The notes under the pieces: model-generated
Told to the model about the DNA's origin: nothing
Database searches by the model: none
What the model saw: the letters and a program-made list of their open reading frames with translations, nothing else
Position numbers and translations under genes: made by a program
Assembly (NCBI RefSeq): GCF_002797495.1
Contig: NZ_PGEZ01000001.1
Location: 1-64,000, forward strand
Direction: 5' to 3'
DNA: 64,000 nt
DNA from: Mumia flava
GTDB lineage: Bacteria > Actinomycetota > Actinomycetes > Propionibacteriales > Nocardioidaceae
Shown: in pieces, positions 3,930 through 52,651 of the stretch
How the letters are laid out: each line of letters opens with the position of its first letter
Numbering within the stretch: position 1 is the first letter of the stretch

Positions 3930-4997
3930 TCAGCTGATCCCTGCGGCCGCGCACGCGTCGGCGTACTCGGCGGTGCAGATCTCGTCGACCGAGTAGAACC
4001 CGTCGGCGACGACCGTGTCAGCGATGTTGTCGGTCGTCACCACGATCGGATCGAAGATGAACGAGTCGACACCCTGGAAGTCCGTGGTCTCGCCCACGTC
4101 CTCGCCGTTGACGATCGCGACCGCGACCTCGGCGGCCTTCTCGGCCTCGACCTTGATCGGCTTGTAGATCGTCATGTACTGCTGCCCCGCAGCGATCCGC
4201 TGGATCGCCGCGAGCTCGGCGTCCTGCCCGGTCACGGGCGGCATCTGCTGGACGCCGGCCGCACGCAGCGCCGCGATCACGCCACCGGCCTGGCCGTCGT
4301 TCGCGGCGTAGACGCCGGCGAGCGAGGACGGGTCGATGTTGTTGAGCTGGCTGCTGGTGAACTTCTGGGCGTTGTCCGGGCTCCAGTCCGGGTTGTCGTA
4401 CTCCGCGACGATGTTCAGGCCGCTGCCGTCGATCGACGAGTGCGCGCCCTCCTTGAACTGTGCGGCGTTCGGGTCCGTCGGCGAGCCGTTGAGCATGAGG
4501 ATGTCGCCCTTGCCGCCGGTCGCCTCGACCAGTGCCTCACCCTGCATCTCGCCGACACGCTGGTTGTCGAACGACATGTAGTAGTCCGCGCCCTCCATGA
4601 ACCGGTCGTACGCGATCACGGGCACGTCGGCGCTCTGGGCCGACTTCACCGCACCGGCGGCCGCGTCGCCGTCGACCGGGTCGAAGACCAGCACGTCGGC
4701 GCCGTCGGTGATCGCCGACTGCGCCTGCTGCTGCTGCTTCTGCGGGTCCTGGTCCGCGTTCAGGTAGTTGACCTCGCAGTCGTCGCACAGCTCCGCCACC
4801 TTCGCCTCGAAGAGCGGCTTGTCGTGCGCCTCGTACCGGGTCGTCTTGGTCTCCGGCAGCAGCAGCGCGATCGTCTTGGTGTCGCCTCCGTCGCCGGAGC
4901 CGTCGCTGCTGTCGTCGTTCGCGCCGCATGCACCCAGTGCCCCCGCGAAGATCACGGTGACGGCCGCCCCTGCGGCGGTGCGCGCCATTCTGTTCAC
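3930..4997 (-). CDS. xylose-type sugar-binding lipoprotein (XylF-like)
   Basis: Periplasmic-binding-protein-family receptor of the importer, anchored outside the membrane as a lipoprotein: the signal peptide ends with a lipobox (GALGAC) near residue 24, followed by a Ser/Asp/Gly linker. The body resembles E. coli XylF: VIAYDRFMEGADYYMSFDN, GSPTDPNAAQF and GQDAELAAIQRIAAG with MTIYKPI. These are close counterparts of XylF segments that line the sugar site, so D-xylose is the best guess. GTG at 4997 is preferred because GGGGAGGA lies about 5 nt upstream; an ATG three codons later would be about 14 nt away. It is the first gene of the operon, with a divergent ROK regulator upstream. Confidence 0.87.
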   Translation of the reverse strand: MNRMARTAAGAAVTVIFAGALGACGANDDSSDGSGDGGDTKTIALLLPETKTTRYEAHDKPLFEAKVAELCDDCEVNYLNADQDPQKQQQQAQSAITDGADVLVFDPVDGDAAAGAVKSAQSADVPVIAYDRFMEGADYYMSFDNQRVGEMQGEALVEATGGKGDILMLNGSPTDPNAAQFKEGAHSSIDGSGLNIVAEYDNPDWSPDNAQKFTSSQLNNIDPSSLAGVYAANDGQAGGVIAALRAAGVQQMPPVTGQDAELAAIQRIAAGQQYMTIYKPIKVEAEKAAEVAVAIVNGEDVGETTDFQGVDSFIFDPIVVTTDNIADTVVADGFYSVDEICTAEYADACAAAGIS

Positions 4998-5070
4998 GCT
5001 GTCCTCCCCTGTCTTATGTGAGCCGGGTCACCGGCCCTGCTCAGAAAGTGTCGAGAGGATCAGGGCAAAA

Positions 5071-5159
5071 CGTCAAGTCGTGAACGTATCTGTGACCATT
5101 CCGAGACCTCCAGTGAAAGAATGATCACCTCTTGACGATTCTCGGGAACTGACTACGGT
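5071..5159. promoter_or_regulatory. divergent promoter region between sugar transporter and ROK regulator
   Basis: CTTGACG occurs twice in opposite orientation, at 5131-5137 on the plus strand and 5077-5071 on the minus strand. On the plus strand TTGACG (5132-5137), 16 bp and TACGGT (5154-5159) place the transcript start at about the ATG at 5167. The minus-strand copy is a plausible -35 for the transporter operon, but its -10 is unclear. The ROK protein probably binds in this region; no operator was identified with confidence. Confidence 0.5.
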
Positions 5160-49923: not shown

Positions 49924-50888
49924 GCCTGCCCTTCTGTCGTGGCGGAGGGGGTGCTGGCGGGGGCGGCGGCCTCGCGCGCGCCGCCGAGGAGGAGGTACAG
50001 GGCGGCCATCCGGACGGCGACGCCGTTCGTGACCTGCTCGACGATCACCGAGCGGTCGCAGTCGGCGACGTCGGCGGTGATCTCCATCCCGCGGTTCATC
50101 GGGCCGGGGTGCAGCACGATCGCGTGCTCCGGCATCCGGGCGAGCCGCTCGACCCCGAGGCCGTAGCGGCGGCTGTACTCGCGTGCGCTCGGGAAGTACG
50201 CGGCGTTCATCCGCTCGCGCTGCACCCGCAGCATCATCACGGCGTCGGTCTTCGCCAGCGCCGAGTCGAGGTCGTACGTCGTCTCGACCGGCCACGACTC
50301 CACTCCGTACGGCATCAGGGTGGGCGGAGCGACCAGGGTGACCTCGGCGCCGAGCGTGGCGAGCAGCAGGGCGTTCGAGCGGGCCACGCGGCTGTGCAGC
50401 ACGTCCCCGACGATCGTGATCCGACGACCGTCGAGATCGCCGAGGTGACGGCGCATCGTGAAGGCGTCGAGCAGCGCCTGGGTCGGGTGCTCGTGCGAGC
50501 CGTCCCCGGCGTTGAGGATCGCGGAGTCGATCCAGCCGGCGTCGGCGAGCCGCTTCGGGGCGCCGGAGGCCTGGTGGCGGATCACGACCGCGTCGGCGCC
50601 CATCGCCTGGAGCGTGAGCGCGGTGTCCTTGAGGCTCTCGCCCTTGGAGACGCTCGACCCCTTCGCGGCGAAGTTGATCACGTCCGCGCTGAGCCGCTTG
50701 GCCGCCGCCTCGAACGAGATCCGGGTGCGGGTGGAGTCCTCGAAGAACAGGTTGACGACCGTACGGCCCCGCAGCGTGGGGAGCTTCTTGATCGGCCGCT
50801 CGGCGATGTGCCGCATCTCCTCGGCGGTGTCGAGCAGCAGCACCGCCTCGTCGCGGCTCAGGTCGCCGGCCGACAGCAGGTGCCTCAT
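49920..50888 (-). CDS. pyrB: aspartate carbamoyltransferase catalytic subunit
   Basis: Commits carbamoyl phosphate to pyrimidines. [13 protein letters not shown] near residue 50 and [18 protein letters not shown] near 128 hold the substrate sites; [11 protein letters not shown] lies near 260. Length 322 aa. No pyrI regulatory gene is present, as expected in actinobacteria. Overlaps pyrR and pyrC by 4 bp. Confidence 0.97.
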
Positions 50889-51484
50889 CGCGCCTCCTCC
50901 GTCCGCGCCGACTCGATCAGGACCTCGTCGGCCCCGTCGTGGTCGGCGACGTGCACCTTCACCTGCTCCGACAACGCGGTCGGGAGGTTCTTGCCGACGA
51001 AGTCGGCCCGGATCGGCAGCTCGCGGTGGCCTCGGTCGACGAGCACGGCGAGCTGCACGGCCCGGGGCCGCCCGAGGTCGCCGAGGGCGTCGAGGGCGGC
51101 CCGGATCGTACGCCCCGAGAACAGCACGTCGTCGACCAGGACCACGACCTTGTCGTCCAGGTCGACGGGGATCTCCGTGCGCTCCAGAGCCCGCGCCGGC
51201 TTCAGCCGCAGGTCGTCGCGGTACATCGTGATGTCGAGCGAGCCGTACGGGACGGGCCGTGTCTCGACCTGGCTCATCCGGTCCGCGACGCGGCGGCCGA
51301 GCTCGACACCGCGGGTGGGGATCCCCAGGACGACGACGTCGTCGCTGCCGCGGTTCTTCTCGAGGATCTCGTGGGTGATGCGGGTCAGAGCGCGGGCGAT
51401 GTCGCCTGCGTCGAGGACCACACGGGGACGTGCGCCGGTCTCGTCGGGACCAGGGCGCGCGGAATCAGGGGTGTGCGCTGACAC
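50885..51484 (-). CDS. pyrR: pyrimidine operon regulatory protein / uracil phosphoribosyltransferase
   Basis: UMP-responsive mRNA-binding regulator with phosphoribosyltransferase fold. The PRPP motif is [22 protein letters not shown] near residue 115 (interpreted), and [11 protein letters not shown] precedes it. Length 199 aa, including an N-terminal extension of about 20 residues. GTG at 51484 has AAGGAGG 7 nt upstream; this ribosome binding site lies inside the proposed PyrR target, so PyrR would repress its own operon. Confidence 0.96.
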
Positions 51485-51534
51485 CGGCTGACCTCCTTCT
51501 CCGCCTCACGGGACGGTGGTTAAAGGACGTCTGT
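51485..51534 (-). promoter_or_regulatory. PyrR-binding leader overlapping the pyrR ribosome binding site
   Basis: The minus-strand leader reads ACGTCCTTTAACCACC then GTCCCGTGAGGCGGAGAAGG and AGGTC. The segment CCGTGAGGCGGAGAAGG fits the PyrR anti-antiterminator loop (a GAGAGG-type core followed by AAGG), and its end is the Shine-Dalgarno sequence. Mycobacterial pyr leaders are arranged the same way and act by blocking translation. A -10 hexamer TAGGCT lies just upstream at 51547-51542. Confidence 0.75.
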
Positions 51535-51570: not shown

Positions 51571-51817
51571 ACGGCGTCCTCCGCGGGTCGGACGGACCCG
51601 TACGGACCGGCACGACGTGATGCCGACCGAGGAGGACATCCCCATGATCCTCGGGGTCGCGGCGCCGTTCGCGCCCGCGCCCAAGGCGCACCCCGCCCTC
51701 CTCGTGCGCGACCTCGACGGGCCGGAGGGCCGCCTCAGCGCCGCAGGCCACGCGTGCGTGCGGTCCGACGGCGAGTTCGAGGGCGTCCAGCGGGGAGCCG
51801 GCGGATCCCCGGCCCCG
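51571..51817. other. intergenic stretch without a recognisable gene
   Basis: Lies upstream of the pyr promoter in the 756-bp gap between pyrR and nusB. A plus-strand frame from ATG 51644 with GAGGAGG upstream is open, but its product resembles nothing I know and runs straight through the palindromes, so it is not called. In Streptomyces the regulator gene bldD occupies this position; no helix-turn-helix coding remnant is visible. Confidence 0.5.
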
Positions 51818-51847
51818 CGTGTTTTCGTTGCCGGCAACGAAAACACG
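51818..51847. repeat. 30-bp perfect palindrome, copy 1 of the GTTGCCGGCAAC family
   Basis: The left half is CGTGTTTTCGTTGCC and the right half is its exact complement, giving 15 paired bases with no loop. It is centred between 51832 and 51833. Two related palindromes follow at centres 54 and 126 bp away. Confidence 0.9.
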
Positions 51848-51874
51848 GCGACGTCCCGGCCCGTCGCGAGCGGG

Positions 51875-51898
51875 GGTTCCGTTGCCGGCAATGGAACC
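51875..51898. repeat. 24-bp palindrome, copy 2, one mismatch
   Basis: GGTTCCGTTGCC pairs with GGCAATGGAACC with a single mismatch. It shares the GTTGCCGGCAA centre with copies 1 and 3, but the arms differ (GGTTCC instead of GTGTTTTC) and still pair with each other. That suggests selection on the structure or on symmetrical sites. Confidence 0.85.
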
Positions 51899-51947
51899 TG
51901 GCTCCGGGCACGGAGGAATCGCGCGCGCTTCCGGTGCCACGAACCAC

Positions 51948-51971
51948 TTCTTGTTGCCGGCAACGAAAACC
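51948..51971. repeat. palindrome copy 3, 12-bp perfect core with degenerate arms
   Basis: The core GTTGCCGGCAAC (51953-51964) is perfect. The right arm GAAAACC matches copy 1, while the left arm CTTCTT is changed so the arms no longer pair fully. Confidence 0.75.
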
Positions 51972-52038
51972 TGCAGGTGGGGCGTCCGATGTCCAGCCGC
52001 GGTACGGGGGCCGCGGGCGTCTGAGGGGGGAGGTGGGG

Positions 52039-52232
52039 TCTCGATCCTCGCTCCGCTCGGCCTCGACCAGCGGGGGTTGGGGTCTCGATCCTCGCTCCGC
52101 TCGGCCTCGACCATCGGGGGTTGGGGTCTCGATCCTCGCTCCGCTCGGCCTCGACCAGCGGGGGTTGGGGTCTCGATCCTCGCTCCGCTCGGCCTCGACC
52201 AGCGGGAGGTGGGGTCTCGGCCTCGACCAGCG
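52039..52232. repeat. 44-bp tandem repeat, four copies plus a deleted fifth
   Basis: Units begin at 52039, 52083, 52127 and 52171 with TCTCGATCCTCGCTCCGCTC followed by GGCCTCGACCAGCGGGGGTT and GGGG. Copies differ by one to a few bases. The fifth, from 52215, lacks the middle segment. Within each unit TCTCGA and TCGACC elements can pair across the unit on one strand. Similar GGTCTCGAT...CTCGACCA elements are widespread between genes in Nocardioidaceae-type genomes. It ends 9 bp before the nusB stop and may act as its transcript end. Confidence 0.9.
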
Positions 52233-52240
52233 CGGAGGGG

Positions 52241-52651
52241 TCAGGCGGGGAGGGCGGGCTTCTCGTCGGCGATCCGGGTCAGCAGACCCTGCACGAACGA
52301 CGGCGAGCCGTCGGTGGAGAGGTCGCCGGCGAGGTTCGCGGCCTCGGAGATCGCGACCGGGTCCGGGACGTCGTCGCGGAACAGGATCTCGTAGGCACCG
52401 ATCCGCAGCAGGTTGCGGTCGACCGCCGGCATCCGCGTCAGCGTCCACCCCTGCGCGAACTCGGTCAGCAGGGCGTCGATCCGATCGCGGTGCTCCCGCA
52501 CACCCTCGACCAGCTCGACCGTGTACGGGTTCACGGGCGGATCGCCGGCGGCGAGCCGCTCGTCCAGCGACGCGCCGACCGGCCGGTCCTGCATCTCGGA
52601 CTCGAACAGGACGTCGAGGGCGCGCTTGCGGGCCTTCGTACGCGCGCCCAT
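52241..52651 (-). CDS. nusB: transcription antitermination factor NusB
   Basis: Binds boxA in rRNA leaders with S10. The all-helical 136 aa begin [21 protein letters not shown] and contain MPAVDRNLLRIGAYEILF and VAISEAANLAGDLS, standard NusB blocks. ATG at 52651 overlaps the efp stop as TGATG. Its target type, a boxA-like motif, is present at the left end of this window. Confidence 0.97.
   Translation of the reverse strand: MGARTKARKRALDVLFESEMQDRPVGASLDERLAAGDPPVNPYTVELVEGVREHRDRIDALLTEFAQGWTLTRMPAVDRNLLRIGAYEILFRDDVPDPVAISEAANLAGDLSTDGSPSFVQGLLTRIADEKPALPA

Follow-up and report, generated by a model that had tools for sequence, protein, structure and literature searches.

An intergenic three-hairpin repeat family in Mumia flava and its relatives, resembling REPINs in form and placement

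The DNA analysed here, called the window, comprises the first 64,000 nucleotides of contig NZ_PGEZ01000001.1 of Mumia flava. Between positions 51,818 and 51,971 it carries three palindromes, and the question this locus raises is what they are: operators, mobile repeats of the REP type or structures that serve the host. The initial annotation had put their centres 54 and 72 bp apart and described the first copy as perfect over 30 bp, and both statements were confirmed. The 12-bp cores lie at 51827-51838, 51881-51892 and 51953-51964 (start-to-start distances of 54 and 72 bp), the second of them with one mismatch (it ends in CAAT). Copy 1, a solo palindrome at 51818..51847, consists of two 15-nt arms that are 100% complementary, whereas copy 2, GGTTCCGTTGCCGGCAATGGAACC, at 51875..51898, is 94% complementary and copy 3, placed at 51949..51968, is 86% complementary over 51948-51969. 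Two minus-strand genes flank the locus and lie outside the repeats, a PyrR-like phosphoribosyltransferase gene (50885..51484; Pfam Pribosyltran, 7.2e-21), which we take to be pyrR from the gene order, and nusB (52241..52651; Pfam NusB, 6.6e-30). A sub-threshold Rfam match to the PyrR binding site (31.1 bits, gathering score 54) was seen at the start of the PyrR-like gene, at 51424-51530 on the minus strand.

We found that one element of about 110 bp, with a third hairpin midway, has copies 2 and 3 as its ends, and that copy 1 is an extra palindrome 54 bp from the left core of this element. The full element occupies 51867..51978 on the plus strand, a 112-bp model span that reaches some 5 bp beyond the element in either direction, and its central imperfect hairpin lies at 51899..51946, approximately midway between the left and right end palindromes. 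The left arm of the central hairpin is poorly preserved; its right arm, GCTTCCGGTGCC, agrees with the arm of the end palindromes at 9 of 12 bases, in inside-out order. The covariance model R1 matched the window element with 106.9 bits on the plus strand and 83.9 bits on the minus strand; this element was among the 14 sequences from which R1 was built.

Inside the window alone, the excess of cores with at most two mismatches is weak evidence (6 against 2.99 expected; 7 of 100 shuffles reach 6). The genome-wide search that the initial annotation had proposed found 32 exact copies of the core GTTGCCGGCAAC in the 4,402,465-base genome, so that the refuting outcome it had named, no further copies, does not hold. 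The letter-reversed control core, likewise a palindrome of the same composition, was found 0 times, and the abundance of the core is thus far from chance genome-wide. These copies make up a family, here called A, of 14 full elements of about 110 bp, in which the starts of the end cores are 72 bp apart in 13 elements and 73 bp apart in one. Two of the 28 end cores have one mismatch, which leaves 26 exact end cores; five extra cores lie 43-54 bp from a neighbouring core at four loci (51827, 778679, 919619, 919673 and 2639407), and the one remaining core belongs to a half element (L022), which accounts for all 32. The half element was counted in the orientation tally of family A and excluded from the 14, and two weak R1 matches in the same genome, at C1:49774 and C1:194267, lie outside the element counts. 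The 14 full elements correspond to 13 loci, as locus L019 holds two near-copies 188 bp apart. This pair was taken as one locus for orientation and as two elements in the arm tests, which are therefore slightly inflated. The near-invariant part of family A is the core with the first flanking bases, an invariance to be read with the fact that the copies were found by that core.

The central hairpin is built from the same arm as the ends. On its right side the arm of the end palindromes, GTTTGCGTTGCC, is repeated, and because this arm (a) and its mirror arm (a') both recur in the spacer, the whole unit is composed of one arm of about 12 nt in the order a a' / a' a / a a'. The best match to arm a in the spacer lies at offset 27 in 13 of the 14 elements and at offset 28 in the element with the one-base-longer spacer. 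With two of the 14 elements oriented beforehand according to their loop sequence, arm a reached 132 identities out of 168, whereas dinucleotide shuffles averaged 94.8 (sd 3.2) and never exceeded 105. The signal of the mirror arm was weaker, 110 identities against 94.7 in shuffles (maximum 106). The central palindrome lies about midway where it is detectable, which is the case in 6 of 14 family A elements when at least 8 of 12 near-centre pairs are demanded, a count made without a null model.

It had also been proposed that the arms of the palindromes change in a compensating manner. Three copies are too few to judge this, and across whole families the proposal stood for the end palindromes, to a modest degree, and not for the complete structure. 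Within the end palindromes of family A, 158 of 252 cells pair, compared with 142.3 (sd 5.0) when partners were dealt between elements, and 2 of 1000 such permutations reached 158; the alternative, end-to-end pairing, gave 144 against a permuted value of 152.5. Similarly, in family E, one of the sister families described below, 106 of 130 cells pair within palindromes against 94.4 (6 of 5000 permutations reach this value), the total for end-to-end pairing being 86, a figure without a permutation control. When single positions were compared over 34 palindromes, only the second flanking base paired more often than in shuffles (19 of 34 against 13.1; 56 of 2000 shuffles reach 19). Pairing over all three hairpins of family A was far above that in slid registers (77.9% against 32-47%), but it showed no excess over its shuffles (76.9%; 99 of 500 shuffles reach the observed value), and the covariation score of the whole structure was reached by 62 of 500 shuffles. 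The compensation is therefore modest and confined to the end palindromes. We conclude that the local end palindromes are modestly maintained by selection or by copying, and that the central hairpin is looser.

Folding predictions gave a different picture of the pairing. The minimum-energy fold predicted for the window copy is one long hairpin and not three, and the RNAalifold consensus on the family A alignment A1 is also one long hairpin, with no both-sided change. With regard to cruciform sites, which the initial annotation had also named as a possibility, the sequences folded as single strands (plus strand as RNA, minus strand as DNA, and the palindrome of copy 1 as DNA with z -3.16) are more stable than their shuffles, with z values from -3.2 to -3.6. 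Pairing between the ends is thus what energy predicts, whereas the co-variation of the arms favours local over end-to-end pairing.

The position of the elements among genes was then compared. None of the 14 full family A elements touches a predicted ORF, whereas among 100-bp placements in the window 4.3% are free of ORFs; genes were called with a home-made codon score trained on the window genes, and Pfam supported 53 of the 55 proteins checked. Among 46 loci of all families (39 of families A to D and 7 of E and F), the flanking genes are convergent at 23, tandem at 21 and divergent at two (sign test for 23 versus 2, 1.9e-5), one of the divergent cases, L081, depending on an open-ended ORF call. 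We relied on the comparison of convergent with divergent loci because the background orientation count (2 of 77 convergent) is biased, since the loci were picked for the elements they contain and most genes of the window point in the same direction. A stop codon is found within 60 bp at 34 of the 46 loci (A, 8/14; B, 12/16; C, 7/7; D, 2/2; E and F together, 5/7). At L117, 62 bp of a family E element overlap the end of a predicted ORF.

Placement close to stop codons and between convergent genes (23 of 46 loci) is what one would expect of RNA or DNA structures that serve the host and are kept by selection, such as bidirectional terminators or stabilisers of mRNA 3' ends, and the folding of both strands beyond shuffles and the co-variation of arms in families A and E would fit them as well. 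We nevertheless think this explanation unlikely. Full family A elements occur at just 13 loci of a 4.4-Mb genome, no T-run follows their hairpins (the arms end in GCAAAC), the stop codon closest to the window copy is 271 bp away, and one family A locus lies between divergent genes. In addition, no R1 match was found beside nusB in five congeners, where the nusB-adjacent stretch contains pyrR in only one (G003) and the gap is too different to align, and the exact core pair was found in none of 57 other genomes of relatives.

The initial annotation had listed operators among its possibilities. Binding sites for a dimeric regulator or a nucleoid protein that reads the 12-bp palindrome would explain a core that is perfectly two-fold symmetric and near-invariant, even if the search by that same core favours invariance, but we give them very little credence: the sites come as a fixed three-palindrome unit, the core changes between sister families while the build stays, and divergent placement is seen at only one of 14 family A loci and two of 46 overall. 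Moreover, the flanking genes have no common theme. A scan of 55 flanking proteins, 53 of them assigned to Pfam families, covered all family A loci other than that of the window, whose neighbours are named above, and part of the B, C, D and F loci, and showed neither a transposase nor a shared function; outside the scan were L081, L089 and L105-L108 of family B, L093, L095, L098 and L110 of family C, L096 of family D, L116 of family F and all five family E loci. The family A neighbours, 24 of 25 with Pfam families, are unrelated and include transporters, acyl-CoA dehydrogenase, amidase, P450, helicase, ubiE, NADH-dehydrogenase chain 3 and dus.

As for conservation in relatives, the exact core pair is not conserved, as noted above, but the architecture is. 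Using R1, we found the same build with other sequences in the M. flava genome itself as well as in three congeners and two genomes from a different genus, the sister-family ends being 60-62 bp apart compared with 72 bp in family A. Family B, in the M. flava genome, has the core GTAGCCGGCTAC (18 exact copies); in 5 of 12 elements both ends were detected at 62 bp, and one end is degenerate in the rest. These 12 entered the alignment and the palindrome count; a second copy at L080 and the elements at L088, L089, L105, L106 and L108 stayed outside the alignment, their loci being included in the orientation tally. Family C was found in G001, with one further copy found by pattern in G005; its ends have the form TTTGCGGTG-4-CACCGCAAA and are 62 bp apart in 6 of 7 elements, and in its central hairpin the same arm recurs in inside-out order, for example CACCGCAAATTCGCGGTG in L092. 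Family D occurs in G003 (E 1.1e-7) and, as a weak match, in G005 (E 0.013), with the ends 60 bp apart in one of two elements. Outside the genus, family E in G024 reads GTTTGCGTGGGG|CCCCACGCAAAC with ends 61 bp apart in 5 of 5 elements, and in family F, in G090, the central palindrome is perfect in both elements and the ends are imperfect. By the same count without a null model as in family A, the central hairpin is present in 2 of 12 elements of B, 7 of 7 of C, 2 of 2 of D and 2 of 2 of F, and was detected in none of the five of E. Families A and B were seen only in the M. flava genome and C and D each in two species. The central arms of A, C, D and E are alike by eye (TTGCGGTG-like), which suggests a common descent of these four families; those of B and F differ more. 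The comparison of families also suggests that geometry is conserved more than sequence.

Each sequence family has a narrow range. An R1 search at E <= 1e-4 matched 4 of 100 genomes drawn from the bacterial family, with stricter filters by which G003 was lost. Six R1 matches (L091, L109, L111, L112, L113 and L114) were rejected as elements since they are without the three-hairpin build, and so was a single GTAGCCGGCTAC in G005 (L115). Among GTDB representatives, the exact core-pair pattern gave nine stretches, judged by eye to be unrelated: a CRISPR-like array, arrays of repeats, and isolated pairs whose spacers are different. A palindrome stood at the midpoint in 2 of 10 core pairs checked, with 10 of 12 pairs in L042 and 12 of 12 in L046. 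The latter, from a Thermoanaerobaculia MAG, has two exact cores as ends, 62 bp apart, with a perfect palindrome at their midpoint, and was taken as unrelated because its core pair sits in an array of units of about 21 bp with the motif GTTGnCGnCAAC (4758-5101). The CRISPR-like array is that of a Hyphomicrobiales MAG (L044, 1487-1705); its repeat contains GTTGCCGGCAACG and is unrelated to the element. No core-pair element was found in IMG/VR, and window positions 51810-51985 gave no match in phage and plasmid collections.

We also looked for the enzyme that might move these repeats. The initial annotation had thought of a distant Y1-type transposase, which the genomes do not bear out: Pfam Y1_Tnp (PF01797) gave no match over the cut-off in the M. 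flava genome (0/1), the genus (0/6) or the element-bearing genomes (0/6), in a search that did find matches in E. coli and other controls. Two sub-threshold matches of 12 bits, in G024 and G090, look like chance. As far as profile searches can tell, the spreading enzyme is not a recognisable Y1/RAYT transposase of the element-bearing genomes; it may have been lost, may belong to another class, or the spreading may be done by host replication and repair. That the elements are mobile at all we infer from their dispersal. No insertion sequence adjoined an element among the loci examined. The inverted ends, the dispersal and the size of about 100 bp would also agree with a MITE-type element of a DDE or other double-strand transposase, its palindromes being terminal inverted repeats, yet this seems quite improbable to us. 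No convincing target-site duplication was seen at the 14 family A elements, where the longest flanking direct repeat is 5 bp in one and 3-4 bp in the rest with no shared register; no transposase is encoded among the 55 flanking proteins; and all 32 exact cores are elements, their neighbours or the one half element.

Known classes of small repeats resemble the elements to different degrees. Core sites of integron attC have the form GTTRRRY/RYYYAAC and occur in cassette arrays; this candidate was rejected, the core here reading GTTGCCG and the loci being dispersed. ERIC/IRU-type repeats are intergenic, MITE-like mobile sequences of about 100-170 bp, and the elements are like them in size, intergenic position and MITE-like character, but unlike them they have three evenly spaced hairpins of one arm and no target duplication was seen. 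The BIMEs of enterobacteria consist of regularly spaced palindromic units in alternating orientation, whereas the dispersed entity here is a three-palindrome unit with symmetric ends; the regular spacing and alternating orientation are shared, as far as the portions of PMC2817692 considered describe them. Rfam gave no match over the gathering score at the window element, L047, L049, L082, L116 or L117, and the matches around elements were sub-threshold or unrelated only. Just downstream of the family F element of L116, a cobalamin riboswitch was found (1666-1780, 37.8 bits).

The closest likeness is to REPs and REPINs. A short palindrome in many dispersed intergenic copies, as in REPs, is found here, with 32 exact cores and none of the 14 full elements inside a predicted ORF, and so is the fixed end spacing of REPINs. 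According to the portions of PMC3116915 considered, REPINs likewise have two inverted palindromic ends at a fixed spacing (71 bp in the published GI doublets, 72 bp here), a pairing spacer (predicted here by folding energy, while the arm co-variation favours local pairing), an intergenic position, solo remnants and clusters; family A differs from them by a third, looser hairpin midway made of the same arm inside-out, by near-perfect palindromes as ends with no unpaired GTAG tag, by the lack of a RAYT over the cut-off and by having 14 copies instead of hundreds. More than 100 copies are usual for REPs in what PMC2817692 reports, against only 14 full elements of family A. GTAG and CGTC REPs are described in the considered portions of PMC3733652 as short palindromes lying mostly between convergent or co-directional genes and near 3' ends, the placement pattern seen here, but the present elements have no conserved unpaired terminal tetranucleotide: inspection of the family A alignments by eye showed no conserved GTAG or CGTC beyond the arms, and in family B the letters GTAG are part of the paired stem (GTAGCC|GGCTAC). 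The elements are thus REPIN-like in form and placement, and membership among REPs or REPINs fails for want of the tag and a RAYT. The same portions of PMC3733652 state that the transposase of CGTC REPs is not known either, and the phyla they name for GTAG/CGTC REPs do not include Actinobacteria. They do mention untagged REP-like families for Mycobacterium tuberculosis, which like the present elements are palindromic, untagged and actinobacterial; what is new is therefore the three-hairpin architecture and its repeated occurrence, and not an actinobacterial REP-like repeat as such. In the literature searched, from which subscription papers were largely absent, no description of a three-hairpin repeat was found.

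We consider it probable that the palindromes terminate a small non-autonomous repeat of the REP/REPIN-like kind, dispersed among intergenic sites, that spreads as hairpin DNA, and the REP-type reading of the initial annotation fits the dispersed, intergenic and mostly 3' position of these palindromic units, their fixed spacing and their solo and tandem derivatives. The unit would spread as a single-stranded hairpin recognised via its end palindromes, its insertion would leave no target duplication, and it would be retained at sites where an insertion does no harm, in many cases directly behind a stop codon. The low copy number, the lack of a Y1 transposase over the cut-off, the loose central hairpin, the one-hairpin fold, pair counts that stay at the level of shuffles for the whole structure and for most single positions, and the distance of the window copy from a stop codon weigh against this explanation, as does the fact that no transposition event, insertion polymorphism or empty site came to light. 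A further step is more doubtful and we put it forward tentatively: the families may form an undescribed class of hairpin triplets in an actinobacterial family (a a'/a' a/a a', ends 60-73 bp apart, palindrome midway) whose sequence is renewed between species while the geometry is kept, spread by an enzyme of a kind other than Y1/RAYT that gauges how far apart the palindromes lie. A partner Y1 transposase accounts for REPs of the GTAG type, and here are several strictly spaced families without a recognisable one. How REPs without a transposase spread, a question raised for CGTC REPs in the portions of PMC3733652 considered, becomes testable in a few actinobacteria.

Several minor features were seen next to the elements. 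Directly adjoining the window element, a 44-bp unit (GTCTCGATCCTCGCTCCGCTCGGCCTCGACC...) is repeated in tandem four times (52028-52220); a GTCTCGA...CTCGAC-like sequence as in this array adjoins repeats in L082 and L084 too, with a looser version in L018. This is perhaps another dispersed repeat family. Five family B elements are clustered within about 22 kb of contig C2 of G000 (912.9-934.5 kb; L082 2903-11753, L080 2315-2529). Solo palindromes and tandem units are presumably products of decay or slippage. Tandem duplications that include an end palindrome were found at L018 (3612-3815, a 54-bp partial unit of family A) and L095 (2079-2286, a 53-bp partial unit of family C), and at L107 a whole 101-bp unit of family B is duplicated (1340-1555), as if elements had grown by slippage.
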